NCBI GenBank assembly: GCA_037501455.1
Contig: JAZIFV010000019.1
Span: 186,001-250,000, forward strand
DNA: 64,000 bases
From: Lantana camara
Taxonomy: Eukaryota; Streptophyta; Magnoliopsida; Lamiales; Verbenaceae
Direction of reading: 5' to 3'
The notes under the pieces: generated by a model
The model's database searches: none
What the model was told of the DNA's origin: nothing
Seen by the model: the letters and a program-made list of their open reading frames with translations, nothing else
Program-made: the position numbers and the translations under genes
Part shown: positions 8,963 through 54,787 of the stretch, in pieces
How positions within the stretch are numbered: the stretch's first letter is position 1
How the letters are laid out: each line of letters begins with the position of its first letter

Positions 8963-9516
8963 CTTAGGTCGTTGATTGGACGGTTGGATCTCGAAAATCC
9001 AGAGCTCAAGGGTTCATCGCCAAAAAGGGGGAAGAACTTCTCCTTCTCTTCCTCTTCTTCTTGCTTGTACGTGGAATGAGGGAGGAGGAAAAAGGGTTGG
9101 CCCTTTTTAGGGCTGAAACGGGTCGGATTAAACGGTTAGGGTCAAACAGTATCTGGTCCATCCGGATCGGATTTTAAAATGGTAGGGCGATCAAATGGCT
9201 TTAAAAGTTTAAAAGGTTAATTCATTGAATCCGAATTACCAAAACGAACTCAATGTTAAGGTTGGAATTCGAATTCGAATCCCGAGCTCAAGGTAGCCAC
9301 AAACGGCCCCAAAACACCCTAATTATAATTAGGTCCTTAACCAGCAATTATTGGACAATTGAGTCCAAGAACAATTTAAATAATTATAAGGCGTACGAAA
9401 TTAAATAGAGTTACACGTTGACACGTAAGCATGCGACGTCACATAAATTCCAAAATTACCAAATTAAACTCTCACGTGGCCTCGTACCTGGCTTGCCGAA
9501 AAACTGGGGTGTTACA

Positions 9517-14195: not shown

Positions 14196-14202
14196 TCTTA
14201 AG

Positions 14203-14214
14203 TGGTATCAGAGC
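14203..14214 (+). promoter_or_regulatory. Primer-binding site of E1
   Basis: tggtatcagagc, complementary to the 3' end of initiator-Met tRNA, seven bases after the LTR end. Confidence 0.93.
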
Positions 14215-14416
14215 TTTGGGTTTCAAAATTGGAGCTCTAGCGTCATGTTGGGTCTGTCTAGGTCGTTCGACTTAGGATTACGTGCTTGTTTGCATTCATT
14301 TTCGTCAAATATGTGAATTATTTGATTTATTTGGATTATTTGCGTTAATTGTTCACATGAACATGCAGTAAACCCGCACTCATCGATATTTTGGAAATCA
14401 TTTTTCTTATTTCAGG

Positions 14417-15422: not shown

Positions 15423-15857
15423 TCTCGGGGAAACCCACGTACTTGTTACCTCTTTCTTTGTTCTTTAAGTGTTTTTGTCTCTTCCTTGTTATGGGTTTTC
15501 TTTCTTTCTTCGCCCTTGTTTGTTGTGTGATTCTTTCCCTACTTGGCTCTTATTTGTAGTGTGTTTCCTTTCCTTCTTGTTTTTGCTCGTTGTGTGCTTT
15601 GTTTTTCCTCTTGTGTTACTTTCTTGTGGTGAGAGTTGGTAGCATGGAGTGTTCGTGAGCGTGGGTGAGTTGTGAGGGTCGAGCTGCTTCCAGTGGGTTT
15701 CTTTGAAGGCGCTTTGTTTTCTCTGAGTTTGGTGTTCGCTTCTAGGAGGTAAGGTCTAGAGAAGCTTGCAGTCTGCTTAGGTTGGAGGGTTTTAGTGTGA
15801 AGTTAGGTTGTCTTCGAAACCGTTCAAGACCTTTAGGACCTGAGGATAGGTCCTTTT
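15423..15857 (+). repeat. E1 non-coding spacer where pol is missing
   Basis: T-rich stretch, then agttgtgagggtcgagct, matching the sequence after gag in element G (about 49970-50110). No RT, RNase H or integrase is recognisable, so E1 is a gag-only (TR-GAG-like) derivative. Confidence 0.7.
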
Positions 15858-19326: not shown

Positions 19327-21421
19327 TGTAACACCCCGCATTTTCGGAGCAAGATACGATGTCGTTTTCGTACGATTAGAACATTATTTATTCAACCTTG
19401 CACGTATTTGAATTGCTTTATTCACCTCTTAATTGTTTATTTGACTCAATTGCATACTTATGAAAATATGTGGACTTAATTGAAATAAGTGTTTAATACC
19501 TATTTGCTCTTTAATTTGAATTATGTGGGTTAAATTGTAATAACTGAACTTTGGGTGTCAATTTTTAATTATGAGAAATTCAATTGGACTCGATTGGACA
19601 CTACTTTAAATCTTTGGAGTACTTTTATAATTTCTAAAATCCGAATTTGGACTTACTAATACTTTCTTTAAAACCTTGGGGATGCTTTTATAATTACATA
19701 ATCTCTAATTGGATTTATTTGAACCCTAATTGAACTATGTGAACTCAATCGCATCACCTAAATTCTCGAGGGACTTGATTGCAAATTCGAAAACTGGGAT
19801 CCCTTTTATCACGTGAAACCCTAGCAGCTTTCTTCATTATTCTTCTCCCCTTTTCTGAGTTAGCAGAGGCGCAGCAATTCCTTCCTCCCCCTCATCAACG
19901 AAGGCTCGCCGACAACCACCACCATCCTTCCGCCAGCAACCACTCCCCGCCGGCACTTCCAGCGCCGATCACCCCCACCATCCTTCTGCGGTATCATCTT
20001 CAGAAGCCTCCGCCGACCATCATCCACCATCTTCGGACAACCATGGATTCCGGCAAACTCCAACGAGGCACCGCCAAATTCTTCACTCCGGCGCAACTCC
20101 AGCTCTCTTCTTTCCTCTCGTCTCAGATTTAGAAGGCTTCATCGCCGGTAATCACAATCGCAGCCGTTTCCCCTACCTCAGTGTCACCTTCGCCGCTGGT
20201 GTCTCTCCTATCAACGTCTCCATCTGAAGGCTGCTGGAGCTCAGCCAGCAAAGTTCCGTTAGTCACCTTCCAGCCGTGAGTCAACAACGTATATAACAGC
20301 TCCAGTCGCCGGCTAATTTTGCAGCCACCAGTTGTAGTCCCTTACCACGATTGAACCTAGACCGGCGAGAGAATCTCACCGACAACCACCAAGCACCACC
20401 ACATCCCTTCTTCCAGCGAAACAACAACACTTGAATCAGAGACCTCCCCCACCGTCTCCCTCAGATCTGACTCGCTCTCTCTCTCTCTTCGTAACCCCTG
20501 CTCCCGAGCCAAAGGTAGCAGCAACAGTAATCGCTGGTGGCCCTGTTTCCTCTTTCACGCTCCACCATCAGGCCTGCTCTTCGGATTCCTGCGACCACTG
20601 CTTTTCCTTCCCTAAGTTGTGGTAAACCATTGATGAATCTTTTTTCCCCTCTCGACATCTCCATACAGTTGTGTTATTAAATGTATAGCTATGTTAGATT
20701 CTTAATGAAATTCAAGACACAAACTATTGGATTTTGTGTATATTGATATCAGATTGTCAGAATTGTAGTATTTAATTAAATATTGTATGTATCTATATTG
20801 TACGTTTTAATGCAATTAGAAATATGAATGTATGTATTCAGTTTGCTAATGTTGAGTTATTATTAGTTTGAAGAATTTGTTGTATTAAAATTATTTACTT
20901 ATGAATAATATCTAATTAACTTGTAATTAGGTGTTTTAGGCTATTATAGTAGAATTGGGTTTCTGGTAAACACACTTATACTTGTGCTGGATCTAATATG
21001 AGTTCTTTATAAATTACAGTATTTCACATAAATTTAGGAAATGACTTGAGTTTGGAGTTTCGGAATATTTTAATAACTCTATAATTGGTTTCTAAATGTG
21101 TTTAAGTGATAGCTTAATTATTTAAGTTTGTTTATACCTAACCTATTTTGTGAATTAAATTAGTTTAAATTAAACCTGTTTGTTGATCAATTAGTGTGAT
21201 GTTAAATTAATTAAGTTAATAGATTAGTGTAGTGATGTGTGTGCGGGAGGTGGGTCAGCATTCCTTTTTAATAATAATTGATGAACTTTATAAAGGGTAT
21301 AAAATTGATTATATTTATGTCTGCATATTAGGTAGTTAGTGGATTGTGTTAATTAATTTAGTATATTTACTTCTGAATGGGTATGATTGCGTGTCGTACA
21401 CATGTGGGTGTATGAATTTCT

Positions 21422-21472
<51 letters not shown>

Positions 21473-22551
21473 TAAAAAGTGTAATTGCTAATTATATTAT
21501 ATTTTGAGTTCAATTGAATTGTGAATCAATTCGGATGTATATCAATTTGTTTTGAGGATACAATTGTTATAATGAGATCTCTTGTACGTTGATTGGAATT
21601 GGTTGATATGTATTAAATTGAACTATATGATATGTTTTGAGTTGTCTACGTGCTACGTGTGCTGCTGTAAATTGAGATAATTGTTTAGTTGTTAATAGCT
21701 TCGAGTGTTTAGTTGAATGTCGTGTTCATTTGCTACGTGTAATATTCATTGTGCACATGAGCACTTTCATGATACATCATATTATTCTATAACCTTGTAT
21801 ACATGCTCCATCATCCCATATCACTCATGCCACCTCATATTATAGCCGTGGGATAGAGTCTTTCTGAAAATGGTTTCTAAACTTATATATATATATATTT
21901 GGGTTTTGCTTTGAAACGCTTTGGTATGCAACACCTATTCCCGGTTCATGAGTCCATTCTTTTGTTCTGTGCTGTGCTCTTTAATATATATAATGTGGGT
22001 GTGCGTTAGCCCCCTCACTCAGCCAGTTGACTGACACCTCATTTATCTTTTAGTTGCAGGTTTCCTTTCGGCTTGAGCTAGGCGGAAGTGAGTCTCTTGA
22101 GTCACACTTGTCAGTCTAGTTGGTATTAGGATGCATTTGTCGCATACCTTATTTATGTTATGTATTTATGTTTCACACTTGAAGGTTAGGTTCTATTTAG
22201 AATTAAACCCGTGTGGGGTTAATAAATTAGTATCTGGATGTTAGTAGATATTATGATGATGTTTATGCTGTTTATTATCTTGGATTATGAATTGATATTC
22301 GGGACTAGGTATCTATGCTAGTTGAACCCGTCACCTGCTTTGCATGTTTTGTAATAAATGCTTCCGCTATCTATTGTTGTTGCTTTTAATTGCTTCCGCA
22401 CTCTGAGTTTATCGAGTTAGATCCGCCTAGCCTAGTGTGTGAGTTGGTCTCCCGTTCGCTATGATTCGGATTCGGGCATGAACTTTCCATTTCATGACCG
22501 GGTCTGGGTCCTAGTGCGGGGGATGTGGCATCCTCCGTTTGGGGTGTTACA
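19327..22551 (+). mobile_element. Gypsy LTR F
   Basis: A 3225-bp LTR from tgtaacaccccgc to ggggtgttaca with stem-loop and gtgcgggggatgtgg near the end. The region 19860-20600 is CCG/CAC-rich, unlike the AT-rich remainder. A TA dinucleotide run lies at 21424-21469. The flank tcctt is not repeated downstream. What follows (tttaagtactgg) looks like a damaged primer-site region, so this is probably a 5' LTR of a truncated element. No palindrome cluster is visible. Confidence 0.8.
20622..22059 (+). other. Putative LTR-contained intron of F
   Basis: Donor ttgtg|gtaaac, acceptor ttttagttgcag|gtttcc. At 1438 bases it is the shortest of the set. Splicing is inferred. Confidence 0.45.
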
Positions 22552-27910: not shown

Positions 27911-28838
27911 TGTAACGCCCCAGTTTTTCAGTTTAAATAATGTGGCGTATTTGTTTATAAATTGCGTAAATTAATTATTTAATTATATGATTACTTGTTC
28001 ATAAGTGTTTTTATTTGATTTAAACTATAAACTATTAATATTTAATTTAATTCATTTTATTTCTACTTTGATACTTAGTGTTAAATTCTTAATTAGGGTT
28101 TTATGTTGCCTTAAATATTTCGGTAATTTCGTTAATTAATTTCAACATGTTATTAGTTGGTTTTAATTTAATTAATGTGGAATTTAGGTTTAGTAAATTA
28201 TTTATAACTATGTGAATTCGTTCATGCGCATGAGTGTGCTATTGGCGCTTCGTTCACATATGTATTGATATCGGATTGGTATGAAAATTCAGTACGTCGT
28301 AAATATATGTGTTATGAACATGCCTACGTGCTCGGTTTATGTTTTCGGATTTATTTGACGTGTTTAAGAATTTAATTTTGATTGTGGAACCAAATCGGGG
28401 GCTAACGAGCAATTAGCGCACCCTTGGTTCCGTGCGTGATATCTTGAGCTCGGGAATTCGGATTCGAATTCCGTCAACTCCGTTGCCTTCGTATCGACGA
28501 TTCGGAGACAATGGAACAAGCCTCATACCTTTTTGAAATCATTAAGACCTCCGAAATCCAACCGTAACGGACAACTCGTGCAAGAAGAGCCCTTATGTTG
28601 ACTAGTCTTCATGGTGGGACCCCATAACCCCCTCTTAACTTAACCAAAGATTAACCATGACTTATCTACCTTGAGTTAAGCCCTTTCTCTCCTCTTTATC
28701 TCTGAAAACCGAACCATATGCCTCCATTTCCAGCTGCAACTGATCGAGAGAAGGGAGAAGAGGAGAAAGGAAGAAAACCTTGGCCATCCTTTGTGATTTT
28801 GAGCTCAAATCACCATCTTTCTTCACCAAATCTTTAAG

Positions 28839-31468
28839 GTATGAATATTTATGTCTTCTATACTCACTTATGCTTGATTTCATCTATTTAAAACATGATT
28901 TGGATCAGATTTGATTAGGGTTTGAATGTTGGGTTTTGTATGAACTTTTGGGGATTTTTGCTCTAGTGACCTATATGTTGGTGTGGCTGAATTCCTTGCT
29001 TATATGTGATCATATGAACTTGTTTCTTGACTTATTTCTTTCCTAACTCATAGTATATGATGTTAGGAGGATTTCATCTCTTGACCCTTTTATAAAATTA
29101 TGAGATATGGAGCTCCAAACTTGATGATCAAACTATTTCCCCTGTTTTCGAACTGCTGTGTGAAATTTGGGGTTGTTGCATGATCATATGGCCTCCATTT
29201 TGTGTGAAAATGCATGGAGTTGATGTACACTCATTGTTCTATATGTTAGCCTTCATGCTTTAAGTATTTGGTTCCATTTGAAGCCTCAAAACCGAAGTAC
29301 ATGGCTTGTTCTTATGCATGATTGTTGACAGAATTGTTGCTGTTACATTTTGTAACTTGTTGATCATTCTAATGTGCTTTAAATTGTACCATTTTGCATA
29401 TATAGGATGTATATTAGTTGTTTTGTATGTTAGCATGCATGCCCCAAAGTTTCAGATCCAAACTCAACCCCTAAGTACTTGATCAAGGCATGATAGAATC
29501 ATTAGGTTTCATATGTGCGATTTTGGCGACCCAGTTTTGTTGCATGGATTCGATGATCATAACGTGTGATTTAGCTTTTGCATTCTAAATGAAAAATGTT
29601 CATAACATGCCAAATATGCTGCATATTAAGTTTCAGAGCATTTGGAGTTCATTTGGTATGCTTTTGGATTGAGTTTGTAAGGGATCAGTTTTGCCGGAAA
29701 AACCTTATGAACGGTTTTGGTTCTGTACCGTGACACCCCCGTGTCACATTTACTCATAAGAGTGAGACACGGGCGTGTCACACCCTCTGCTCAGTTCTGT
29801 ACTGAGCCACGCCCGTGGCTCAGTTTGGCTAAGGGAGGTGACACCCCCGTGTCACTTCCCATGCGCAGTCTTCGTCACTTCCTCTTCGGTTTTTGATTTG
29901 TTTCCCCTCCTTAATGACTTTATCTCCCTTTATGTTGAACTATGAACTTGTTGTACTATGTGTTAGGAGTATTTTGGTTTAATTTCATGGCATTTGGAGG
30001 TGCTATAGGCATGCTTTTACTTGATGCCGGTTATGGGTGTTTATGTGTCGTTTATGAATCGCCTCGTTTAATTTCTATATCTTATCACTTCTTCTTGATT
30101 GCCCAACCTTGAATATATGCTATGTTATGTAATATGAAGTATATGGTAACATTATCGAAGAGCTTGAACATGTTTTGTGCCCTCATTTGGATTCTTGAAT
30201 TATTGGATTGGGAGTATGAATTGAATGATTTATGATTGAACAAGTGAACAAATTGGTTATAGGATTTTCATGACTTAATATGATCTTTATGTCTTCATAT
30301 CATGTGTGAGCATTGCCGTGCGTCATATATGGTTCATTTAGGGTCTTGAGTCTCACGAACACGTCTTGTGGTCTTTTGTACAGTTTGTCTCCAGGGTGGA
30401 GAGCTTTTGATCGTCAGGCACTTGGTGCTCGATCCTTGTTTCATCACGGTTCAGGTGAGGGTGGTTTTCGTTGTAGCTATATAACAAACCCTACAACCCT
30501 TACGTGAAAAGCTTTGGCCAAAACCTTATGATTATATATATATGATTTCCAAACGAAGCTATCGAGTAAATTCTTCTGAATTATACGTATGAGCGTACAT
30601 AAGCTTAAACATGGTTTTGTAATGAGGCTATGCTCCAAACCGTGTGTCGTCATGCTAGCTATGGATTAGGATGACACGGAGAGGTACGTATATAGCATAT
30701 GCCGAGTTACAAGGTAAGGTATGATTTCTTATAGTATGTATCCTATGTATGTATTAATATGTTTTGGCGAGACACATTTATCACTTATCACAGAACGGGC
30801 CCCGGGACTTAGTATATGTGGCTAACCGAGGAAGCAAGGGCTGACGGGGATCCCATATACTAGTCCCAACCAAATTACAGCGGTACCGGACCTCGTCAGG
30901 AGATTGGCGGGGAAAGGGAGCTGAGTGCCATCTGGGGAGTCATGTAACCCCTTTTGGTCAAAGACAGAGGTGGTCGGGTCTTGCAAACCCACCACCAACC
31001 CGGAGGAAGAAGGTTGGAACTTATTTATAATTGAAATGATTGATTGACTGATTGATTATTGATTGATAGGCACCGTGCGGGAAGGCCGGGAACCGGATTG
31101 CCCAAACGAATATGATTTAGGATTTGATATATGAATTGTGTGTATTATGATATATCGCATGATCACCTATTTAAAATATTATTGATATTTGTCGTACACG
31201 GTCGGAGTTTGGATGGAGGTTGTGCACGCTCACTCGCCGAGCCTCATATTTATGTACGATTTATGAATGTAATGAATTTAATATGAATTAGTCATAAAAG
31301 TCGAGCATTGTTTATCTATTTTCTTGCCCTTAGTGGGAACTAAATTCTAATAAAACCTTGCACGGGATTTATGACTTGCATGTGCATGTTTTATATATAT
31401 ATATCGCTCCTGCTCACTCAGTCTTCTAGAGACTGACCCCTTTCCCTCCCCACTCTTTTAGTGTGCAG
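28839..31468 (+). other. Putative LTR-contained intron (5' LTR)
   Basis: Donor tttaag|gtatga, acceptor ttttagtgtgcag|gtttga. The 3' LTR copy would be 35427-38056. Because reverse transcription needs the full LTR, unspliced RNA would have to serve as genome. Inferred only. Confidence 0.5.
29730..29855 (+). repeat. Palindrome cluster, arms gtgaca/tgtcac and gagccac/gtggctc
   Basis: Units: gtgacacccccgtgtcac (29730-29747); gacacgggcgtgtc (29766-29779); a long one at 29802-29823 with arms ctgagccac and gtggctcag; and gtgacacccccgtgtcac again (29838-29855). Exact copy in the 3' LTR at 36318-36443. Confidence 0.9.
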
Positions 31469-31899
31469 GTTTGATCTTTGGAGTTTCGGGCTAGGCGGAG
31501 GTGTTTGGAGTCCTTTTGTGGGTCGAGTTAGGTTAGGAGAGTCTCTGCACTCATTCATGTATTGGAATTATGTATGATTCGTGTTATTATATCATGAACT
31601 TGAATATTTATGTAATTGTCATTGAATTGTATTACTGGATTTCGTTATTGTTTAAAAGAGGCCTGAAGAGCCCAAATTCTGCCTATGGTTTGTATGATTG
31701 AACTTTGGTTTTCTATGCATTATATTTTATTGTATGGTTATCACTGCAGGGTCTAGCTCCGCCTGGCTTAGATAAGTTTTTATGTTTGTCTCCCGTTCGC
31801 TATGGTTGGATACGGGTGCGGAGTCACTGTTTCGTTACTCGTGTCGAGCCATAGTGCGGGGGATGTGGTGCCTCACGTGCGGGGTGCTACATCCTTAAG

Positions 31900-31911
31900 T
31901 GGTATCAGAGC
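31900..31911 (+). promoter_or_regulatory. Primer-binding site
   Basis: tggtatcagagc, matching initiator-Met tRNA, eight bases after the LTR end. Confidence 0.95.
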
Positions 31912-34485
31912 CCGGTTGCAAAACCGATGTTCTTGAGTCGTGCCGGAGGCAGTCTAAGTCGAACGGCATAGGGACTATGTGATATTGTGTGCATTGCATC
32001 GATCTTGAATATGGAATTTGGTTTCCTCAGGAATTTTGTTGAATTACTTGTTGCATTTTATATGGATTCTTGTCTTTCGTATTGAATATGTGTCATGAGC
32101 ATGCACTAATCGCATGCATCTACTCTTGAAGTAAGCTATGATTTATAGGTTATGGAGATAATATCAAACCACGGCCAAGTTCTACGACAAGGAAGATCGA
32201 TTGCGAACCTCTCTGAGACACGGAAGATGGGCAGGATACTCTGGGAAGAATGTGGAGAATGCTAGATGCGAGACTTCCCAAATAGGGCTAGAGATCAAGG
32301 ATTAGGCTTCAGGATGGGAAGATTGAATTTAGAGACGCGGTGGCAGAAGGACACTTGGTGAAATAAGGATTGATTGTGGGATGGTTATGATCTAGAAGAT
32401 TGACCGATATGGCTCTGTCACATAAGGTGCCTTGGATTGGATGCACGGGATCTTTCAACCTAAAGAATAAAGTGAACGAACCTTGAAGATATTCTGATTC
32501 GGGACTTGATCGTTGAAGAGGTATCAATAATTAGGAGAAACTAAGATAAGATGGGTCCGGTAGGAGTGGTGCACATGGGGTCGACAAAGAAGGAATTCTG
32601 ACTAAGCCTAGGAAATTGAAATTTAGTCTGTCGAAGTTAAGACCGGGAAGAGTTGGACTTGGTTGCTTTGGATTTCAATCATGAAGGGAAACTCATAAAT
32701 AGTATTCACGGGAATCTTGATCAAGGTGTTGATTAGGATATGAGTTCGTTTTTCCAAACAAAGCTGAATTGCCATGTTGTGAAGTAAAATGGAAGATATG
32801 AAGCAACAAATGGAAATGGTAAAGAAAGGAAATCATGCGCTCAAATGTAAGCAGTTGGAGGTGAATTGAACTCACAAAGGATAGGTACAGGATTCTTGAT
32901 CAAGGTGACAATTAGACGTAAAGGTCGAATTGCGAGGAGAAGTGTGGATGCTAACTCAGTGGACGTGGAAGAAGTAAGGATCAAGAAATTGCAATCTCGG
33001 ATAGTAGAAGATACAAGTGATGCAACTCATGGAAAACTTGAAGACCGTGGGAAAGGCAAGGGATCATCACCAAGTCAAAGTAACCTTGGGATTGGAGGAA
33101 CGAGGAAAAGCTACTGAGCTAATAGCTTACCATATCGGTGACAGGTTCCAAAACATTCATAGCACGTGCATCATAGTTTACATTAGTTATTTATTCTCTT
33201 GACTTTATGTTCAACCGTGCCTTTCTAATTGGTTTCGTTGCGCTAATGCGTTGTATAATTGCTTGATGTAAACGTGACCCATGCATTGTCATTTTAACCC
33301 AACATGCATTTTAGTGTTTACTTGATAGGAAGTCTTTTCTCCTTAACTATCAAGTATCAGTTCCACCGAGCCGCATCTGAGTTATGAGGAGGAGAAGCGA
33401 GACTAGAGTTCTGGACAAGATTAAGAAAGGAGTTCGGACATCAAGAGAACTAAGGAAGGAGTTGAAGGGCCACATTTTTGATTTCTGCATCAGTTAAATT
33501 CCACCTCATGGGATTTACTCATCAAGAGTTCGATAAGAGAAGAATTGATGGAGTTCAACTTGGGACAACAGAAATTTAAGGGGGAGAGCACGACCGAGAA
33601 ACAAATTGGACGATTGAAAAGGTGCTCGAAGAAATATTCTAGTGGGAATGACGAAATTACAAATTAAGGAAGACCTGAGAGTCCTATTAGTGATGATCAG
33701 AAATAAATAAGACGGCGTGAATGGTTAAGCTGTGAAGAGGAGAGTTAAGTTACTCAAGTCGGGTTAGAGTCCCTCATTAGGTATAAGGGAAATGTCTTGG
33801 AGAATATTCCTATGTATGGAACATGGATCTAGGGATAATAGAATTATAAAGGAGCGTCTGGAAACTCCTAAGTCAGAATTGACAAGAGAGAGTGTCGAAT
33901 CAAGTTGGCATATGATGGAATGATGGCGATCACGAGTAATCCCATAGGGTACAAAGACGAGGTTCAAGACAAATGGGGCACCGAGTTATATTTGGGACAG
34001 ATCATACCGTGGACCATGACAACTCACCAATCTGAATTTTACTACTACGGTGAACGGTACTTATAACATTCATCATACATGCATCCATGCAAATTTAACT
34101 TATATATTTTTCTTATGTTAAGTGTTTTGATCTGCACGGTGTTAAAATTACTTGGAGTAATTGGTAACCAATATGGGTGACATTTATTACTTGCTTTGGA
34201 TGCCTTACGTGATTTTAAATTTGGTTTTGCGTGAGTTGCTTGGGAGTATTGGAGACTTCCTTGTTTTATTTTCGGTTAAGAGACGGGGATTCTCTTATTT
34301 TGTTTGAGAGACGGGGTACTCTCTTTGCTTGCGAGAGACGGGGTTCTCTCATTGTTGTGGGAGAGACGGGGTTCTCTCATTGCTGCTCGAGAGACGGGGC
34401 TCTCTCCTTGTTGCTTGTGAGAGATGGGGGAATCTCTCATTGTTTGATTTCAAGCGTGTTTTGAATCCGAGGACGGATTCTTTTT
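31912..34485 (+). repeat. Non-coding internal domain of the LARD-like element
   Basis: Purine-rich and full of stops; the longest open stretch is about 80 codons. The segment at 32756-33180 is homologous to the decayed ORF at 24810-26154. The cggtga...cattcat module occurs twice (33125-33180 and 34045-34096). It ends in the hairpin array 34278-34480. Nothing recognisable as gag, RT or integrase. Confidence 0.75.
34278..34480 (+). repeat. Hairpin array next to the purine tract
   Basis: Six units spaced 27-30 bases: about 34278-34296, 34306-34323, 34333-34350, 34361-34378, 34389-34406 and 34419-34438. The best form is gagagacggggttctctc (perfect gagaga/tctctc arms). A seventh inverted repeat with different arms (gaatcc...ggattc) lies at 34463-34480. 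Confidence 0.88.
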
Positions 34486-34498
34486 AAGGGGGAGAGAT
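34486..34498 (+). promoter_or_regulatory. Polypurine tract
   Basis: aagggggagagat directly before the 3' LTR. Plus-strand priming site. Confidence 0.9.
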
Positions 34499-37400
34499 TG
34501 TAACGCCCCAGTTTTTCAGTTTAAATAATGTGGCGTATTTGTTTATAAATTGCGTAAATTAATTATTTAATTATATGATTACTTGTTCATAAGTGTTTTT
34601 ATTTGATTTAAACTATAAACTATTAATATTTAATTTAATTCATTTTATTTCTACTTTGATACTTAGTGTTAAATTCTTAATTAGGGTTTTATGTTGCCTT
34701 AAATATTTCGGTAATTTCGTTAATTAATTTCAACATGTTATTAGTTGGTTTTAATTTAATTAATGTGGAATTTAGGTTTAGTAAATTATTTATAACTATG
34801 TGAATTCGTTCATGCGCATGAGTGTGCTATTGGCGCTTCGTTCACATATGTATTGATATCGGATTGGTATGAAAATTCAGTACGTCGTAAATATATGTGT
34901 TATGAACATGCCTACGTGCTCGGTTTATGTTTTCGGATTTATTTGACGTGTTTAAGAATTTAATTTTGATTGTGGAACCAAATCGGGGGCTAACGAGCAA
35001 TTAGCGCACCCTTGGTTCCGTGCGTGATATCTTGAGCTCGGGAATTCGGATTCGAATTCCGTCAACTCCGTTGCCTTCGTATCGACGATTCGGAGATAAT
35101 GGAACAAGCCTCATACCTTTTTGAAATCATTAAGACCTCCGAAATCCAACCGTAACGGACAACTCGTGCAAGAAGAGCCCTTATGTTGACTAGTCTTCAT
35201 GGTGGGACCCCATAACCCCCTCTTAACTTAACCAAAGATTAACCATGACTTATCTACCTTGAGTTAAGCCCTTTCTCTCCTCTTTATCTCTGAAAACCGA
35301 ACCATATGCCTCCATTTCCAGCTGCAACTGATCGAGAGAAGGGAGAAGAGGAGAAAGGAAGAAAACCTTGGCCATCCTTTGTGATTTTGAGCTCAAATCA
35401 CCATCTTTCTTCACCAAATCTTTAAGGTATGAATATTTATGTCTTCTATACTCACTTATGCTTGATTTCATCTATTTAAAACATGATTTGGATCAGATTT
35501 GATTAGGGTTTGAATGTTGGGTTTTGTATGAACTTTTGGGGATTTTTGCTCTAGTGACCTATATGTTGGTGTGGCTGAATTCCTTGCTTATATGTGATCA
35601 TATGAACTTGTTTCTTGACTTATTTCTTTCCTAACTCATAGTATATGATGTTAGGAGGATTTCATCTCTTGACCCTTTTATAAAATTATGAGATATGGAG
35701 CTCCAAACTTGATGATCAAACTATTTCCCCTGTTTTCGAACTGCTGTGTGAAATTTGGGGTTGTTGCATGATCATATGGCCTCCATTTTGTGTGAAAATG
35801 CATGGAGTTGATGTACACTCATTGTTCTATATGTTAGCCTTCATGCTTTAAGTATTTGGTTCCATTTGAAGCCTCAAAACCGAAGTACATGGCTTGTTCT
35901 TATGCATGATTGTTGACAGAATTGTTGCTGTTACATTTTGTAACTTGTTGATCATTCTAATGTGCTTTAAATTGTACCATTTTGCATATATAGGATGTAT
36001 ATTAGTTGTTTTGTATGTTAGCATGCATGCCCCAAAGTTTCAGATCCAAACTCAACCCCTAAGTACTTGATCAAGGCATGATAGAATCATTAGGTTTCAT
36101 ATGTGCGATTTTGGCGACCCAGTTTTGTTGCATGGATTCGATGATCATAACGTGTGATTTAGCTTTTGCATTCTAAATGAAAAATGTTCATAACATGCCA
36201 AATATGCTGCATATTAAGTTTCAGAGCATTTGGAGTTCATTTGGTATGCTTTTGGATTGAGTTTGTAAGGGATCAGTTTTGCCGGAAAAACCTTATGAAC
36301 GGTTTTGGTTCTGTACCGTGACACCCCCGTGTCACATTTACTCATAAGAGTGAGACACGGGCGTGTCACACCCTCTGCTCAGTTCTGTACTGAGCCACGC
36401 CCGTGGCTCAGTTTGGCTAAGGGAGGTGACACCCCCGTGTCACTTCCCATGCGCAGTCTTCGTCACTTCCTCTTCGGTTTTTGATTTGTTTCCCCTCCTT
36501 AATGACTTTATCTCCCTTTATGTTGAACTATGAACTTGTTGTACTATGTGTTAGGAGTATTTTGGTTTAATTTCATGGCATTTGGAGGTGCTATAGGCAT
36601 GCTTTTACTTGATGCCGGTTATGGGTGTTTATGTGTCGTTTATGAATCGCCTCGTTTAATTTCTATATCTTATCACTTCTTCTTGATTGCCCAACCTTGA
36701 ATATATGCTATGTTATGTAATATGAAGTATATGGTAACATTATGGAAGAGCTTGAACATGTTTTGTGCCCTCATTTGGATTCTTGAATTATTGGATTGGG
36801 AGTATGAATTGAATGATTTATGATTGAACAAGTGAACAAATTGGTTATAGGATTTTCATGACTTAATATGATCTTTATGTCTTCATATCATGTGTGAGCA
36901 TTGCCGTGCGTCATATATGGTTCATTTAGGGTCTTGAGTCTCACGAACACGTCTTGTGGTCTTTTGTACAGTTTGTCTCCAGGGTGGAGAGCTTTTGATC
37001 GTCAGGCACTTGGTGCTCGATCCTTGTTTCATCACGGTTCAGGTGAGGGTGGTTTTCGTTGTAGCTATATAACAAACCCTACAACCCTTACGTGAAAAGC
37101 TTTGGCCAAAACCTTATGATTATATATATATGATTTCCAAACGAAGCTATCGAGTAAATTCTTCTGAATTATACGTATGAGCGTACATAAGCTTAAAAAT
37201 GGTTTTGTAATGAGGCTATGCTCCAAACCGTGTGTCGTCATGCTAGCTATGGATTAGGATGACACGGAGAGGTACGTATATAGCATATGCCGAGTTACAA
37301 GGTAAGGTATGATTTCTTATAGTATGTATCCTATGTATGTATTAATATGTTTTGGCGAGACACATTTATCACTTATCACAGAACGGGCCCCGGGACTTAG

Positions 37401-38479
37401 TATATGTGGCTAACCGAGGAAGCAAGGGCTGACGGGGATCCCATATACTAGTCCCAACCAAATTACAGCGGTACCGGACCTCGTCAGGAGATTGGCGGGG
37501 AAAGGGAGCTGAGTGCCATCTGGGGAGTCATGTAACCCCTTTTGGTCAAAGACAGAGGTGGTCGGGTCTTGCAAACCCACCACCAACCCGGAGGAAGAAG
37601 GTTGGAACTTATTTATAATTGAAATGATTGATTGACTGATTGATTATTGATTGATAGGCACCGTGCGGGAAGGCCGGGAACCGGATTGCCCAAACGAATA
37701 TGATTTAGGATTTGATATATGAATTGTGTGTATTATGATATATCGCATGATCACCTATTTAAAATATTATTGATATTTGTCGTACACGGTCGGAGTTTGG
37801 ATGGAGGTTGTGCACGCTCACTCGCCGAGCCTCATATTTATGTACGATTTATGAATGTAATGAATTTAATATGAATTAGTCATAAAAGTCGAGCATTGTT
37901 TATCTATTTTCTTGCCCTTAGTGGGAACTAAATTCTAATAAAACCTTGCACGGGATTTATGACTTGCATGTGCATGTTTTATATATATATATCGCTCCTG
38001 CTCACTCAGTCTTCTAGAGACTGACCCCTTTCCCTCCCCACTCTTTTAGTGTGCAGGTTTGATCTTTGGAGTTTCGGGCTAGGCGGAGGTGTTTGGAGTC
38101 CTTTTGTGGGTCGAGTTAGGTTAGGAGAGTCTCTGCACTCATTCATGTATTGGAATTATGTATGATTCGTGTTATTATATCATGAACTTGAATATTTATG
38201 TAATTGTCATTGAATTGTATTACTGGATTTCGTTATTGTTTAAAAGAGGCCTGAAGAGCCCAAATTCTGCCTATGGTTTGTATGATTGAACTTTGGTTTT
38301 CTATGCATTATATTTTATTGTATGGTTATCACTGCAGGGTCTAGCTCCGCCTGGCTTAGATAAGTTTTTATGTTTGTCTCCCGTTCGCTATGGTTGGATA
38401 CGGGTGCGGAGTCACTGTTTCGTTACTCGTGTCGAGCCATAGTGCGGGGGATGTGGTGCCTCACGTGCGGGGTGCTACA
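34499..38479 (+). repeat. 3' LTR of the LARD-like element
   Basis: Same 3981-bp length as the 5' LTR, offset 6588. The three differences are listed under the whole element. Ends ggggtgctaca before TSD ttgta. Confidence 0.95.
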
Positions 38480-42360: not shown

Positions 42361-44054
42361 TGAAAATGTGAGGTGTCAGTCTATGAAAGACTAAGTGAGG
42401 GGTTACAATTTACAAGCACAAGTACCTTGCAAGTTATGATCTCGATTAAGATTTTATAAAAGGTACAATATAGGTTCAATAATAATGCAATACTCTCCCG
42501 AGATTACAACTAATCAATTTACAATTCAAACGATTATCAATTCAATCCGTGGCCCGGCGAGTGAGTGCAATCTCCAACCTTACTCCAATAGTGAACAATC
42601 ATGAGTGTTTCAATTTATTAAGTGAGCATGCAAATCATTACGTGCGATCAATTAGCAGTTTCATGAACCCTTCTTCCTCCGGGTGATGGTGGGCTTGCTA
42701 GACCTAACTATCCAATCATGGTGTACGTCGGGAACATGACTCCCATGTACTGGATTTCTTCCTCCATCAAACCTCCTGTTGGATTCATAGGTGATCCCAA
42801 AATGGTGAGGATAGTGTAAGAGTTACCCGTCAGCCCATGCTTTTCCGATTGGCTCAATACCCTACCCTCGGGCCCACAGTGAACAATACATGTACTCGCC
42901 CAATCAATCAATCCTTTCAATATTTTCAGAAAATTATTTGTAAAACAAGAGATTTGAAAACTACAGGTATATAAATACTTTTGGTCAAAAACGTCACATA
43001 GGGTAATAGGGTTCTAGGTATCTAGATTAACCTCACCTTTACCAATCAAGAATAACAAAGAACCACTTTACGGAGCGTGCTCCTTGTCTCCGAGACCGTG
43101 ATCTGTGTAACAATGACAAGTGTACGTGAGACTCGACCCGTGTGAACCAATTAAGATGAACGGCATGTTCAAATAATGTCAATCATGCAATTACAATCAA
43201 TAATTATCATAAACATATGCACTTTAGCAATTAAAGTAGCAAAGATCAAGTATTCAATATATAATCAAAGAATACAATTATTACACTAACCTCCCCTATG
43301 AAATCACATGATACATACCATACACATAATATAATACATTAGATGGCATATCAATAAAGTGTTCATATCGGAAACGGACTAAAAAAACCATGCACGAGAA
43401 GTTTTTAAAATCCATTTTGCATGCAAAAGTAGCTGGGTCGCGGGCGCGACCAAATTCCTTTACAAAAGGGTCGCGGCCGCGACCGAGTATTTTTGCCCTA
43501 ATTTTCCTCCAAATTTTCCAAAATCTCGAAACAGGGCCAAATTTTGGTCGCAGTCGCGACTAATTTTCTTCATAAAAGGGTAGCGGTAGCGAGTACCTAT
43601 TTTTGGCCGAATTTTCACCCAATATTTTCAAAACTCGAAACTAGGCAAAATCGAGTAGCGGCCGCGACCGGTTTTACACGTGAATTAGGTCGGAGGCGCG
43701 ACCACTTACGCAGCAGCAGCAAAACAGGGGATTCCAAACCAAATACCACAAAATCAACAACAAGGACAAGTTCACTCCATAAGAATTAATTCAACCCATC
43801 AAATACAAATTATACTTCAAGCATACACCAAACAAATCATGAAATATGCATCCAAGCACTAAAATCAATCATGAAAACCCCAACTATATACATACATGCT
43901 TCCAACTTTGATATACCCCAAGATATTCATGCAAGTTCAATCCCTTATGATCCTAAACATGCTTCTAGCTCCCAGCATACAAGAATTCATCATTCAATTC
44001 ACAAACCCTGCTCAATTACTATTTCAAGGAATTCATAAATTCTCCAAGTTATAC
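42361..44054 (-). other. Putative LTR-contained intron
   Basis: Minus strand: donor tttaag|gtataa, acceptor ggttttgcag|gttgag. Inferred. Confidence 0.45.
43436..43703 (-). repeat. Palindrome cluster, arms ggtcgc/gcgacc
   Basis: Six units: ggtcgcgggcgcgacc (43436-43451), ggtcgcggccgcgacc (43469-43484, perfect), damaged ggtcgcagtcgcgac (43546-43560), gtagcggtagcgag (about 43580-43594), gtagcggccgcgacc (about 43655-43669) and ggtcggaggcgcgacc (43688-43703). A sharp CpG-rich island in AT-rich DNA. Confidence 0.9.
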
Positions 44055-46355: not shown

Positions 46356-47463
46356 GTTTCCAGCTCTCCCCGAAAAATCCCTCGCGTTTGTATAAGAATG
46401 CCATTTTTCACGCTTGGGAACGGCCTGTTCCGGCCCAAGGCCAAAATGGGAAGGGTCGTTCCTAGCCTCGCGCACCAGATCCTTCAAAGTAGTAGGAATG
46501 GCCGTTTTGAGAAAATAACTAAAATGGGAAAGGTCGTTCCCACCCTGTAGAAAGCTCAAAAACTGGGCAAAAACAGGGAAGCTCTCGGACCAAATTCAAA
46601 AACACCAAAACACCAACAGAATCACTTCTAAATGCATTAAATCAAGCAAGAAACATACCTAGGCACTTAAAATTCAATTAAAATCAATATGAACACTCCA
46701 TTCATGCCTTGATCATCAAGAATCTCCCATACTAAACTTATCATCCAATACCATAAACTTTAAGAGTTCAAGTTATATGTGAATAAAATCAACCCAAGAT
46801 CATCATATTTAGCTCATATAATCTCATGGAATTCAAAGGACCACAAAACCCTAACATAATCAAGGATTTCAATATATATATGTATGAACTTACCTTCAAA
46901 ATAGAAAAAATGAAAGGGGAAAGGAAGAGATGAAGTCTTGTGGTGATTTCCTTAGAGAAGATGGAAGAATTCATTGGCTCTTGGCTCCTTGGTTGAATCG
47001 AGATTGGAAGGAGAAGATATGGAGATGTCTTATGTTGTTCTTCAATGAAGAATGAAGAATGAAGAAGGTGTATTTATATCTGTATGATATATCATGTAAG
47101 AGAGGTGGGAAAAGAGAGAAAATTGCCAATAAGTGCTTTCAAAGTTTAAGTTATGCAATCAAGTTCCCAACTTATGAAAGTTACCATTTAGCCCTTACTA
47201 ATTCTTCAGTTAAGTCCACACGTTTAATAAAGTTTCACTTAAGGACAATTAGACACATAATCATGCTCGAGAAAATTAAATACGTAATTTATGCAATCAA
47301 TTGCACAAGGGAAAGAATCTAAAAGCTCATAATCCACAAGAAGTTCAATTAAATAATTAAATTGTGTAATATAATAACAAAACGGTATTAAATAAATCTT
47401 AAGTCTCAAAACTCACACGCGTGGCGTGCGTACCTGAACGGCTGGAAAAACTAGGGCGTTACA
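46356..47463 (-). repeat. Split minus Gypsy LTR, U3-side half
   Basis: Ends ctagggcgttaca (reverse of an LTR start). Contains a palindrome cluster (46417-46541) and a donor in reverse (gaag|gtaagt, boundary 46893). It lacks the acceptor and U5 end, which the fragment at 22740-23867 supplies in the same orientation. Confidence 0.7.
46417..46541 (-). repeat. Palindrome cluster, arms ggaac/gttcc
   Basis: Units: ggaacggcctgttcc (46417-46431), gggaagggtcgttcc (about 46448-46462), ggaatggccgtttt (about 46495-46508) and gggaaaggtcgttccc (about 46526-46541). Related to the gaacggccgttc phrase of element G. Confidence 0.72.
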
Positions 47464-49934: not shown

Positions 49935-51515
49935 AATCTCGGGAAAACCCACGTATGTGATACTTTTCTCTCTTTGTTGCCTCTTGGTTTGGCTTATTTC
50001 TTGCGTTGTTGTTTTCTTTGTGTAAACTCTCTTCTTTGAGAGAGTTTGGTAAGGTAGAGTGTTCGAGTGTTTGGTGAGTTGTGAGGGCCGAGCTTACCCA
50101 GTGGTTCTTCTTGAAGATGTCTTGTTGAGGTACGGAGCTACCTTAGGCGTGGGTTGGGTGTTCTAGCGGCGCGTTGTTTTGGTGGTTGCTTTTAGGAGGT
50201 CCATTAGGGGCTCAATGATATTTTCGGGTAATAGATTGAAGGCTAACCCTTTGTATCCTTCTTCGAAGTGGTTGGCTATTCCAGGACGGTGCGACAAGCT
50301 ACGTAGCTTACCTTTGAGTTAACTGAAGGATCGAGCCAAGCTTGAAGAGACAAAGATCATAGTAAGATTTCCATGATGTTTCCTTAAGGGTTGGAATTCG
50401 TTACCACCCGATAGGGACATTGAGGTTGTCGTGATCTTTATCCTGGAGATAAAACCTTGTTTGAAGATTCCCCACTGGATGACTCTAGCGTGGGTGTTGG
50501 AGTTGAATGCGTAGTTGATGAGCTCTTAGAAGGTAGTTTCATCCGTTTGAGTACTTCTTCGGCGAGTTCTTAGTCCTATCTAAGAAGAAGACGGGATTTT
50601 AGGATGAATATAAACTACCTTGAGATGCACAGGTTAACTGTGGACGATAAAATACCCTTTGCTCTTTTCGAGAGTTAATCGTTCTTCTTCAGAGTTTCGT
50701 GGTTGGCACCAGGTGTGGTTTTACAAGGGTATTATCGACTGAGTGTTCGAGTAGAAGAACTGAGTTTTACCTCAGAGAAGTCTCTAGTGTTATCGAGATT
50801 CAATACGAGATTAGTCTCTCTTTAGATGGCCATCCCGTGACATGAATTACAGGAAGAGGCACGGTTTTGAATGGGAAGAGGCAGTTGAAGTGAGTTACCT
50901 TCGGCACCGGCTTTGCTCAACCAAGGGTACTCAAGGCTACTTCGTTTATAATCGAGGCACAAAGGAAGGCTTTGGTTGTGGGTTGCTAGCAGGAGTGTGT
51001 GGCCTACACCTTGAGAAGTGCAAGGTCACAAGAATTATCCCACTCTTGGTTCGAGTCTATTCGAGGACTTGAAGAACTGGTTTGGTGTAGTGGCACGAGT
51101 AGAGATGTTGCAGACTATGTGCAGCAATGTTTAATGTGCCATAGGTTGAAGACCGAGCATCAAGAATCGGTAGGTTTCTCCAACTAGTTCCAAATTCCAT
51201 TTGGAAGTGGGAGCAGACAACTAAGGACTTCGTGTTCGGTTATTAAGGAGATCTCACGAGGTTTGATGGGTTGCTCGTTTTAACGAGTTGACCTATTTTC
51301 CTCTTAGTGCAATTGTTCGACGGGTTTCGAGAGCTTTATGGTTTGGAAGAGAAGATTCTTTAGAGTTGAAGTCTTCCACCAAGTCTTGTGGTAGGATTTA
51401 AAATCCGAGAAGCCACTTGAAGACCATATCAGAGTGGCGCAGCGGAAGTGTGGAGTTGAACTTCATTTCAGATCCGATCAAGACCCTGCTTTAGGACCTG
51501 AGGACAGGTTCTTTT
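49935..51515 (+). pseudogene. Shrunken Gypsy pol of element G
   Basis: Pol is compressed by deletions but still in order. The RT N-terminal region is readable as PDRDIEVVVIF...KIPHWMT near 50400-50490. An RNase H-like segment (50842-51000) has WEEAVEVSYL, GTQGYFVYNRGTKEGFGCGL. The integrase zinc-binding segment has RDVADYVQQCLMCHRLKTEH (about 51095-51160). A fragment of the integrase core (TKDFVFGY) lies near 51220. The motif set is Tekay/Del chromovirus-like. Not functional. Confidence 0.78.
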
Positions 51516-51529: not shown

Positions 51530-52763
51530 TGTAACATCCCGTCCAGCCGTACAGGTACGCTGTTACGAGAGTGCTACGTACACTTTTAAATTATTTAATT
51601 ATGTAATTATATGTTTATTAAATTGTTTACTTGCTTATTTGAATATTTACATGAATTATTTGATTTAGCTTTAATGTGAACTTGAACGTTTTACCCCTAG
51701 TTGCCTTGTTTTTAGTACGTTTGGATCCGTTTTCGATTCTAATTTCTGTGATTATGTGATATACATGAATTATTTATATTATAAATGTGTTTTTATATTT
51801 GTTGCATGTTTTTAAGTTCGTTTGATACGGTTTTCGAACCGTTTTATTTCTTATGGACTTAAGGGCCTAACTTGTTTTAGCGCGCCTTGGGTTCCGAAAG
51901 GTGTAACTCGAGATCGGGAATTTAGATTTGAATTCTGGCAGTGGTATTGAACTCATAATGAATATTGGAAGCTTAAGAACTTGGCCTCATAATTTTCTAA
52001 GCCCGTTTGGACCCCGGAACTTTGCCCGAACCGAGTCCCATGTGATAGATTTGCCACCCTTGCCCGTTTTGCTCATAACCGACCCGTTTCTTATCCGAAT
52101 TGACCCATTTTTGAACCCGTTTAGTCCTTTTTTAACCTTATATCACTTTCTCAGCCTCTCATTTTGGTTTAGCCCAAGGAGAAAGGAAAAAAAAAGCAGA
52201 AACGAGAGAAAGAAGGGAGAAAAAGAAGAGAAGGGCTGCCACTATTCACAACTTGCGATTTCTTGCTCGTTCGACCTCCGTTCTTCGTCAAATTCAAAAG
52301 GTAAGTATATTTTGTGGTCTCCATCTCCTTAACTTTCTTTTAAACCTGATTTTGCTCATTTTCATGGAGATTAGGGCCTGTTTTGCTCACTTTCATGAAT
52401 AGTTAGGTCATATGCGCACTTTGGAAGAATTCATCCCATACATGCTTTATTTCTTGAATTGATACATGATATATGAGCTAAATAATTCTTTATTTCATTC
52501 CTCAGCTTTAATTTCATTACACTTGTGTATAATTTGATCTACCATTGTTAAACTTTTGAAAAACTTGAAGCTTGAATGCAAGAATTTGAGATGCACTTTG
52601 GTCCTTGTTGCTGCATGGTTTAGGAGCTGATTTGGAGTGGTTATCTTCATTTTTTAATCAGAGTTATGTGCATATTTGAGTGCTATGTGTTACCTTTCTT
52701 TGCCTTGCTTTCTTCCCCTGTTTTTCAGCTAGAAACGAAGCAACACAGCAGCCCAACGTAGCA

Positions 52764-52886
52764 GCAAACGCCCGTTCGCCTAGCGTGAAGGAATGGTTCG
52801 AACGGTCGTTCATGTTCAGCTGTCACTTCTGTACAGCTGAATGGCCATTCAGGTTACAAGGATAAGGGGACTGAACGGCCGTTCAG
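52764..52886 (+). repeat. Palindrome cluster, arms ctgaac/gttcag
   Basis: Units: about 52764-52779 (gcaaacgcccgttcgc), about 52797-52813 (gttcgaacggtcgttc), ctgaatggccattcag (52837-52852) and ctgaacggccgttcag (52871-52886, perfect). Confidence 0.85.
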
Positions 52887-52897
52887 TTCCCTATGCA

Positions 52898-53079
52898 TGT
52901 GACACCCCTGTCCCACATCGAGAAAGTATGATAGTTAAGTTCAGTATATAAGTTAAAGAGTCCAAGTATAACCAATGGATATCCTTTTTGCAAGTGCTTA
53001 GGTCCAATTTCAGGTTATACTCGGTGGGCTTGGAGACTTTCACTTGCGTCCAACGGGGCCATGGTCCCGGGGTATTACA
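52898..53079 (+). mobile_element. TRIM-like mini solo LTR, TSD atgca
   Basis: A 182-bp unit from tgtgacacccctg to ggggtattaca with identical five-base flanks atgca at 52893-52897 and 53080-53084. It carries the tcccacatcg motif common in plant TRIM LTRs and a tataagtt box. It has no coding capacity and no 5S-like boxes, so not Cassandra. Inserted just after the palindrome cluster. Confidence 0.82.
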
Positions 53080-53740
53080 ATGCAGGTCAAGGAGCTACTA
53101 CGACAAAGATCTTCATTCCGGAGCCGTGCACGCGACCCTTTGCTTCCTTTCTTGAACCTATATGTTGTTATTGTTGTGTTTATGATTTTATTTGCTTTCT
53201 CCCACCCAGATTATGCTCCTAACTTTTTTTAATTTGAAATATTATGTGTTTCGCTGTTTGTTTTAATTTTATGGATTTATTTGCTAAGCGTAAACATAAT
53301 TTGAAAGTCTAACCATTTAAGTGATACGTGTAATTCCTCTTGCCTCTTTTACCTTGTTATGTGTTTTAATCTCATGCATGATTATAATATGTTATAATAT
53401 AATCTATTATGAGCTTGTTTGATGTGTTATGGGTTTAATTTATGTATCTTTGATAAGATAGTACGATATATACCCCGATATGCCTAAATTTGAACGTATG
53501 TGACGTACATTACATCATGAGCATCCATATCCTTTGCCGATCATATAATTGGTTCAGATTGAGTCTAAGGTTGTCTTTTGTCGTTTGCTTTGTTAAGTGG
53601 TTCATCCCGTGAGTGAGGAGGTGGTGCCATAGGAGTCTTTTGGTTCATTACGTCCAGTTTAGTCGACAAGGTGAGGTTTTCTTCTTTTAGTTAATACAAC
53701 CTACAACGCTACCTATATTTTAAGCCCACATGTGACATAC

Positions 53741-53793
<53 letters not shown>

Positions 53794-54787
53794 GGTATGT
53801 GTATGATACGTATTTTGTGGGAATTGACTCGTCTGCTATGAAATCACTTTTGAAAAGGGCTTTTATACATACGTAAGCTATATTTCCATTTATTAATTTG
53901 AAAAAGGGTTGGCGTGTGTTATGAACTAGCAAGATTTTGACTTTGAAATATAACTCTTGAAAATTCAAAAATTTCGAAAATTCAGAACTTATGAACTGGA
54001 CCCCGGAGTAGGTGGATTGATTTTGAGCTTTGTATGTATTTCGTTTTGATTATGAATATGAAAGGAGTTAGGTTGGTTAGAAACTCGTTCTCGTTGAGTT
54101 ATTTTAATTTTGATTACATTTGTGGTTCGTGAAACGGGAGTGGATTTATAATTTCTAAAACTTGGTTATTTGGCCTTTTTGCCCTAAATCTTTTCTATAT
54201 TTAGTATCACGGGCTAAAATATTTTAGAATACAAAAACCACACCCCGGTTCATGAACTCTTTAATTTGAATATGCTTTGCTCTTACGTATATGTACGTGT
54301 GCGTGTGTTAATCCTCACCAGTCTTTGGGACTGACCCCTCCTCATTGTTTTTTTTTTTCCCTTTTTCTTTCTGAGTTGCAGGTAATCGTTGGGAGTTTGT
54401 GCTAATCGGCGGTCGTCTTTCAAGTCTTGGGTCGTGTAGCGAGTCTCATGCATTTTGCTTAATTTACTCTTGTACTTTGGAGCTTTTGAACGCATGTATA
54501 AGATTTTAAACTCGAAGTTGAGGATATTTGTATAATTTGACTCGCTATGTTTTTGATTATCTGTTTATATTCCGAGCATTTTTATTTATATATTTGAATC
54601 CTAGTGCTTCCGCTTATGATTTCATTTTTAATGCGCACTCTGTATTAGGGTCTAGATCGCATAGCCTAGGAGAGATTTTGTTTATCTCTCTTCGTTATAG
54701 CTTGGTGCGTGTACGGAGTTACTATTTCGTTACACATGTCAGGCTATGGTGCGGTGGATGTAGTGCTCTGCCCTCCGGGGTGCTACA

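Follow-up and report, generated by a model that had tools for sequence, protein, structure and literature searches.

Clusters of short palindromes downstream of a donor-like site in long Gypsy-type LTRs, possibly a hairpin region of the genomic RNA

Why do several LTR retrotransposons that lie side by side each carry a cluster of short palindromes with arms that are shared within one LTR and mostly differ from those of the next? The question is raised by seven distinct Gypsy-type LTRs in a 64-kb window (the whole stretch of DNA analysed here), and these seven LTRs are also our whole dataset. A first-pass annotation of this DNA had described the palindromes, and we find them where it placed them, 4 to 6 in each LTR with shared arms around a G/C core, except that the clusters at 8541-8673, 43436-43703, and 46417-46541 belong to LTRs on the minus strand. 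The window as a whole is a nest of plant-like LTR retrotransposons that are mainly decayed, with only two closed frames of at least 150 amino acids.

Element A (27911-38479, plus strand) is a young element of 10.6 kb with two 3981-bp LTRs of 99.9% identity (27911-31891 and 34499-38479, both plus strand), a PBS at 31899-31911 (plus strand), a purine tract preceding 34499, and an internal region of about 2.6 kb. Three more are solo LTRs, namely F1 (561-3788, plus strand; near-duplication TCTAG/TCCAG), M (6187-9516, minus strand), and P43 (41989-44602, minus strand; 2614 bp), the last of which adjoins Copia coding sequence with the domains RVT_2, Pol_BBD, and gag_pre-integrs that are part of the element harbouring it. 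C3 (15872-17515, plus strand; downstream limit placed by hand) and E3 (51530-54787, plus strand) are the 3' LTRs of elements C and E, respectively, and LTR N is present as its 5' part (46356-47463, minus strand), its low end truncated by another insertion as judged by eye. These LTRs had been called unrelated-looking, a description that we cannot uphold because they share the start TGTAAC (changed to TCTAAC in C3) along with a 3' end that is conserved wherever it is still present. The group has the hallmarks of LTR retrotransposons, i.e., LTRs of 2.6 to 4 kb with TG...CA ends (TGTAAC...TACA), 5-bp target duplications in A (TTGTA), M (ATTCT), and P43 (AAGAA), a PPT, and an initiator-tRNA-type PBS (TGGTATCAGAGC) behind three LTR ends. 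A testable gag exists for one LTR of the seven: in element C, the 5' LTR ends at 14195 and is followed by a PBS at 14202-14214 (plus strand; GTGGTATCAGAGC) and a gag-like frame at 14417-15208 (plus strand; in-frame stop at codon 24), a piece of which (14489-15211) matches the Gypsy-type gag family PF03732 with an E value of 7e-4, below the Pfam cut-off. The other six LTRs are linked to C through the similarity of their LTR ends. The lineage may be that of Del/Tekay-type Gypsy elements, although none of the 22 window frames scanned with Pfam (of 109 frames of at least 75 amino acids) contained a Gypsy RT, integrase, or chromodomain. A protein search with the gag piece left none of 229 candidates passing an E value of 0.001, and a PBS-junction pattern gave one match in viral contigs, where no LTR-like surroundings were seen, and seven in genome contigs (bacterial records) that we take as chance.

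The fixed place assigned to the clusters is a loose one, as they start at LTR positions 844 to 1235 in six of the LTRs and at 1820 in A. F1 has 4 units at 1563-1699 (plus strand; LTR position 1005) with the arm GGTAAC and the cores GCCC, GCCC, GGGG, and CCCC; M has 4 at 8539-8675 (minus strand; position 844) with the arm GTTAAC/GTTAC; and C3 has 4 at 17061-17195 (plus strand; position 1189) with the arm AATCC, set in a duplicated two-palindrome module. The 4 units of A (arm GTGACAC) lie at 29730-29855 of its 5' LTR, and the same cluster is found again at 36318-36443 in its 3' LTR (both plus strand). P43 carries 5 scored units and one decayed unit at 43435-43704 (minus strand; position 900; arm GGTCGC), N has 4 at 46415-46542 (minus strand; position 923; arm GGAAC), and E3 has 4 at 52763-52887 (plus strand; position 1235; arm CTGAAC). 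In element C, the 5' LTR (14092) aligns with C3 up to a point about 56 bp short of the cluster and continues from there with the conserved LTR end, an internal deletion having taken away the cluster region, and the LTR at 19327-22551 (plus strand), which is of comparable type, has no cluster. Other LTR remnants in the window either lack the cluster region or have limits that cannot be defined.

Stems of at least 6 bp with a loop of 2 to 6 nt and at least 50% GC are about 25 times denser in the clusters than in the rest of the window (17 in the 1172 bp of eight clusters, or 13 in 1046 bp without the duplicate copy at 36318, vs 37 across all remaining sequence). Against 2000 dinucleotide shuffles per cluster, with stems of at least 5 counted, the p values range from 0.0005 to 0.085 with the clusters at 17060 (p 0.085) and 46417 (p 0.046) as the weakest. 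Rfam has no match in the window at gathering score. The best 42 matches of a covariance model built on the units all fall into the source clusters or the copy at 36318, and the first match beyond them is at 62480 with 14.7 bits. Stems with the same arms outside the clusters are absent from the window for four arm groups and rare for AATCC (one, at 34464) and TGAAC (one, at 43157), while TGAAT gives four that are AT-rich. CpG density is within the top 7% of LTR windows of the same length for P43, E3, and N and is not for the other four clusters, and a CpG island is thus not a general feature. Two insertions lie near palindrome clusters: a 182-bp insert (TGTGACACCCC...GGGTATTACA, 52898-53079, flanks ATGCA) that starts about 10 bp past the last palindrome of E3 and looks like a very small solo LTR, and a break of LTR N about 61 bp after its cluster (at about 46355) by sequence beginning with TGTTGGGATTAGTGCCC, which by eye resembles the beginning of a Copia LTR.

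We scored 29 units from the 7 LTRs, leaving out the duplicate cluster at 36318 and the decayed P43 unit; the 19-nt unit of N was retained minus its middle base for unit scoring, arm identity, and the comparison of arms with LTRs. Arm identity is 0.75 within and 0.41 between LTRs (permutation p 0.0002; 29 units, 7 LTRs), and arms are thus shared within an LTR beyond chance. Across units, the middle (close to ACGNCCGT) is most conserved while the arms diverge outward, giving a variable stem around a conserved loop. An inner AACG is common to F1, M, N, and E3; CGGCCG occurs in units of P43 and E3, CGCCCG is found in units of these two LTRs and also of F1, M, and A, and units of C3 and N have neither. 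The orientation of the core flips between units of F1 and A (GGGG or GGGC among CCCC/GCCC), as symmetric arms would allow. The family specificity of the arms stands insofar as they differ between most LTRs, but F1 (1565) and M (8541) share their arms even though the closest LTR relative of F1 is E3 (1527 nt alignable), and arm identity does not correlate with LTR similarity (Spearman 0.13, p 0.57; 21 pairs, two LTRs incomplete). A barcode that tracks LTR relatedness is therefore not supported, and the proposal of a protein-binding barcode is weakened by the same two observations, i.e., arms that ignore LTR relatedness and unlike LTRs (F1 and M) with common arms.

Covariation between the two arms gave a divided answer. 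Among 28 units (27 distinct; the 19-nt unit of N is excluded here and from the covariance model), 81% of cells pair vs 54.6% in shuffles (reached by 0/500), and the covariation score is 0.659 vs 0.228 (0/500); sliding the partner leaves a score of no more than 0.136. Conversely, two of the five measures fail to exceed shuffles, namely pairs changed on both sides (7 vs 6.1, reached by 133/500) and further pair types (17 vs 15.3, reached by 115/500). Unit symmetry is inflated because the units were chosen for palindromicity. Within single LTRs, compensation taken alone (15 vs 8.1, p 0.064; pairing 159 vs 151.3, p 0.021) is only suggestive. One instance is found in A, where unit 3 (GAGCCAC...GTGGCTC) differs from unit 1, at an offset of 74 nt, by two compensated pairs, and symmetry was thus retained after duplication through two compensating changes per arm.

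That spacers are not repeated is true for M, N, and E3, but not for the other clusters. With the scored palindromes masked, spacer self-alignment shows no excess over shuffles in these three LTRs, goes beyond all shuffles in C3 and P43 (0/300 each, with the decayed palindrome counted as spacer in P43), and is moderate in F1 (3/300) and A (7/300), so that spacers are clearly duplicated in C3 and P43 and probably in F1 and A. A two-palindrome module is duplicated at an offset of 74 to 109 nt in C3, P43, F1, and A, and arm sharing within an LTR is therefore partly due to descent in some clusters. Duplication in six of seven clusters was rejected since palindrome masking leaves two clear and two moderate cases. 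The clusters are nonetheless no simple tandem repeats, as already proposed, because Tandem Repeats Finder detects no array inside them even at score 30 and degenerate two-palindrome modules repeat in some of them only.

The key to the architecture of the clusters is the donor-like site that the first-pass annotation had noted upstream of them. Clusters lie about 290 to 890 nt downstream of an AAG|GTA site, with the respective GT at 8961-8962 in M (minus strand; CTAAG|GTAACC), 28839-28840 in A (plus strand; TTAAG|GTATGA), 44053-44054 in P43 (minus strand; TTAAG|GTATAA), 46892-46893 in N (minus strand; TGAAG|GTAAGT), and 52301-52302 in E3 (plus strand; AAAAG|GTAAGT). AAGGTA occurs at LTR positions 451 to 1000 in six of seven LTRs, a count never above four in 4000 shuffled sets. 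The claim that clusters follow such a site is thus sound for six LTRs by motif but for only five by homologous place, because the match in C3 precedes a purine-rich stretch at a non-homologous position; the homologous places in C3 and F1 look damaged. Assigned from the motif alone and clear in one LTR, a TATA-like TATAAATA is found at position 386 of N, upstream of the donor-like site at LTR position 571. Ahead of the clusters, a stretch with 18% to 35% T is followed by the donor-like site and then by a stretch with 39% to 46% T, and the rise after the donor is seen in all seven LTRs (smallest in P43, 0.35 to 0.41; donors of F1 and C3 placed by eye). The clusterless LTR at 19327-22551 has its own AAG|GTA site; this lies at 20515, and a GC-rich frame-like stretch is visible by eye at about 19860-20520.

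A matching acceptor-like sequence, TTTTTCTTATTTCAG, is found in one element only, at 14401-14415 (plus strand) of element C directly before the G-ATG of gag (ATG at 14417); the homologous place of element E (ATG at 48935) has no acceptor and reads TCTGGATG. Donor and acceptor together suggest a putative leader intron that would run from the donor in the LTR up to the start of gag and enclose the cluster and the PBS, both of which would then be present only in unspliced RNA. After LTR position 700, the seven sequences examined contain 27 to 127 ATGs (C3 is incomplete, N includes other sequence, and A includes its leader), and an unspliced gag message would therefore translate poorly.

At the RNA level, the three clusters that we folded (of seven) are far more stable than shuffles with z scores of -7.8, -3.7, and -4.2. 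This fits the earlier suggestion of an RNA hairpin cluster, but the predicted folds frequently pair units with one another; separate hairpins are formed by units 3 and 4 of A and unit 4 of E3, while the fold of P43 is mainly long-range. Predicted duplexes between units have a mean energy of -17.0 within LTRs (self-pairs included) and -9.0 between LTRs, and the best predicted partner is the own LTR in six of seven cases. Stem mismatches on the sense strand comprise 15 A-C, 6 G-T, and 23 others (two-sided binomial p 0.078), a spectrum that gives no hint of G-U being tolerated in the sense RNA and, if anything, suggests the opposite, so that a sense-strand wobble bias was dropped as proof of an RNA role.

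Other palindromes were seen close to the 3' ends of the internal regions. In each of the three 3' junctions that were read (34463-34480, 51494-51511, and 15836-15853, plus strand), a single hairpin with the loop AGGA sits immediately ahead of the PPT; its stem varies between elements, and the two departures from pairing, judged by eye, are G-T in both cases on the sense strand. A second and clearly tandem palindrome array (GAGAGACGGGGTTCTCTC, period about 28) precedes the PPT of A at 34277-34439 (plus strand) and has a diverged relative at about 4144-4600 (minus strand); in contrast to the arms of the LTR clusters, its arms are common to both places.

Our best reading, which we hold tentatively, is that the clusters are hairpin clusters of the genomic RNA that serve its dimerisation or packaging. 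Under this hypothesis, each cluster would amount to 4 to 6 short hairpins within the leader RNA of a Gypsy retrotransposon with long LTRs, with transcription presumably starting slightly upstream of the AAG|GTA donor. For the gag message, the donor would be spliced to the acceptor one base ahead of the gag ATG, and this splicing would excise the cluster, the remaining LTR, and the PBS. Hairpins would thus be kept solely by unspliced genomic RNA, so that spliced RNA could be devoted to gag translation and unspliced RNA to replication. Acting as RNA, the hairpins may form a multi-hairpin dimerisation or packaging signal, similar to a psi/DIS-like region past a major donor, or may alternatively hold the pool of genomic RNA unspliced; arms would stay self-complementary because it is pairing that counts. 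We favour an RNA role because of the conserved core, the variable and covarying arms, and the predicted place in unspliced RNA only, and among RNA roles we prefer dimerisation or packaging as the best precedented (Ty3, BARE1). Several observations speak against it, namely the mismatch spectrum, the folds in which only some units stand as separate hairpins, the symmetry on both strands, the acceptor limited to element C, and the clusterless LTR at 19327-22551 despite its AAG|GTA site.

An extension of this RNA reading that seems rather unlikely to us is a homotypic recognition code, by which unspliced RNAs of the same family would pair with each other and those of co-resident families would not. 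Each family would then carry several interchangeable self-complementary hairpins after its splice donor, with the G/C core as the first loop contact and arms that diverge between families because mispairing is selected against. If true, an element would pick its packaging partner in this way, including short non-autonomous ones (27911-38479). By the predicted duplex energies, the self-recognition tag suggested by the first-pass annotation is a physical possibility only.

Nearly as likely as hairpins of the genomic RNA, and ranked just below them, is a regulatory array acting at the level of DNA, in which each palindrome is the site of a dimeric DNA-binding protein. This protein could be a host factor or be encoded by autonomous relatives, and the array could either enhance transcription from a promoter-proximal or intronic position or tag the element against silencing. 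Such a role would suit the mismatch spectrum without RNA wobble preference as well as the symmetry on both strands, which is reflected in near-equal scores of the hairpin (covariance) model on either strand. It could also account for motifs shared across LTRs: five of the seven (all but C3 and N) have units with CGGCCG or CGCCCG, and F1, M, N, and E3 have units with AACGG or CCGTT. The latter motif may resemble a MYB-type core. DNA binding has likewise been proposed for the palindromic "RM boxes" of Sireviruses, which also differ between elements (PMC2829016). However, those boxes lie upstream of the TATA box (PMC2829016), whereas the clusters described here are downstream of a donor-like site and, in N, also of TATAAATA. 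Furthermore, a dimer site predicts conserved arms and a free spacer while we observe a conserved core and variable arms, and a host factor is unlikely to switch its half-site LTR by LTR.

We consider it improbable that the clusters are a mutational by-product without function, built up and re-perfected through duplication of short modules together with template switches that occur at quasi-palindromes while the element is reverse-transcribed or replicated. Template switching is able to alter both arms in one event. The duplicated modules in C3 and P43 (and, moderately, in F1 and A) are in line with this idea, and the flips of core orientation between units of F1 and A are what strand switching is expected to produce. 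It leaves unexplained, however, why the same region is affected in seven divergent LTRs, why the core is similar across them, and how clusters without detectable spacer duplication (M, N, and E3) came about. Least probable of all is that the cluster is mainly a silencing hotspot, as has been reported for palindromes of maize Sireviruses, with transcribed hairpins that give rise to small RNAs after cleavage by Dicer-like enzymes, since this view, which could draw on the strong predicted folds and on the small-RNA hotspots in palindrome-rich regions of maize Copia LTRs (PMC5311732, PMC10760457), accounts for a consequence and not for the element's retention of the hairpins, and CpG is clearly raised in only three of seven clusters.

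Among known systems, several share single aspects of the genomic-RNA hairpins that we favour or of their hosts. Del/Tekay-type Gypsy elements have kilobase LTRs with TGTAACRCCCC...TGYTACA-like ends, and the LTR ends, the TGGTATCAGAGC PBS, and the LTR lengths of 2.6 to 4 kb match them. VANDAL transposons carry clusters of family-specific motifs bound by VANC; similar to the LTRs studied here, these are clustered short motifs in non-coding element DNA with a potential for self-recognition, but VANDALs are DNA transposons and their motifs are not known to be palindromic. In retroviruses, the psi/DIS region for packaging and dimerisation lies between the splice donor and gag, a position that the clusters of our elements would share given the predicted donor and acceptor. 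The yeast Gypsy-type element Ty3 dimerises its RNA in vitro via the short 5' palindrome PAL6 (PMC11381356). Our elements would likewise have palindromic hairpins near the 5' end of a Gypsy-type genomic RNA, though Ty3 relies on one functional 6-nt palindrome and the LTRs of the window have 4 to 6 longer ones. For the plant LTR retrotransposon BARE1, separate pools of spliced, Gag-expressing RNA and packaged RNA have been described (PMC3735527). We predict a comparable coexistence of spliced Gag RNA and packaged RNA; however, BARE1 is a Copia element with a 104-nt intron at the end of gag, unlike the predicted leader intron of about 2 to 3 kb that would cover most of the LTR and the PBS. A maize survey reports structure concentrated in Copia LTRs and, in its accessible text, Ty3-type elements generally without an obvious structure peak (PMC10760457), and clusters in Gypsy LTRs would therefore be a genuine difference of lineage or host. 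No title or abstract opening among the literature matches listed mentions palindrome clusters within a leader intron of Gypsy LTRs.

The closest named feature appears to be the RM boxes of Sirevirus (Ty1/copia) LTRs, which are clustered, element-specific palindromes with a CGG-CCG signature (Bousios et al. 2010, PMC2829016) and match in kind what had been annotated as without any named counterpart. Their main database matches are sites of stress-related factors, and the accessible part of that study calls them Sirevirus-specific because of their absence from the classic Ty1/copia elements compared, a comparison that apparently left Gypsy elements aside (PMC2829016). Like RM boxes, the clusters bring together short palindromes within the upper half of an LTR, with a motif that is common within an element and differs between elements and a G/C-rich core; the CGG-CCG signature has a partial parallel in CGGCCG or CGCCCG, which are lacking in units of C3 and N. 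They differ in their host, which is of Gypsy type (by a gag match below cut-off in one element) rather than a Ty1/copia Sirevirus; in number, with 4 to 6 units per LTR as opposed to at least eight per element; in CpG, which is raised in only three of seven clusters here while RM boxes form or border a CpG island; and in place, because RM boxes start 200 to 400 bp into the LTR (PMC2829016) whereas our clusters start at LTR positions 844 to 1820, past the donor-like site (and, in N, past the TATA-like box). Should this pattern hold genome-wide, it would replace a vague "regulatory palindrome" by an RNA hypothesis that can be tested and open the questions of how a plant element separates translated from packaged RNA and how co-resident families keep their genomes apart. 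Element-specific palindrome clusters would then extend from the Copia Sireviruses to kilobase-LTR Gypsy elements, in which they would sit in the leader intron and look like a Gypsy counterpart of RM boxes at a different place.
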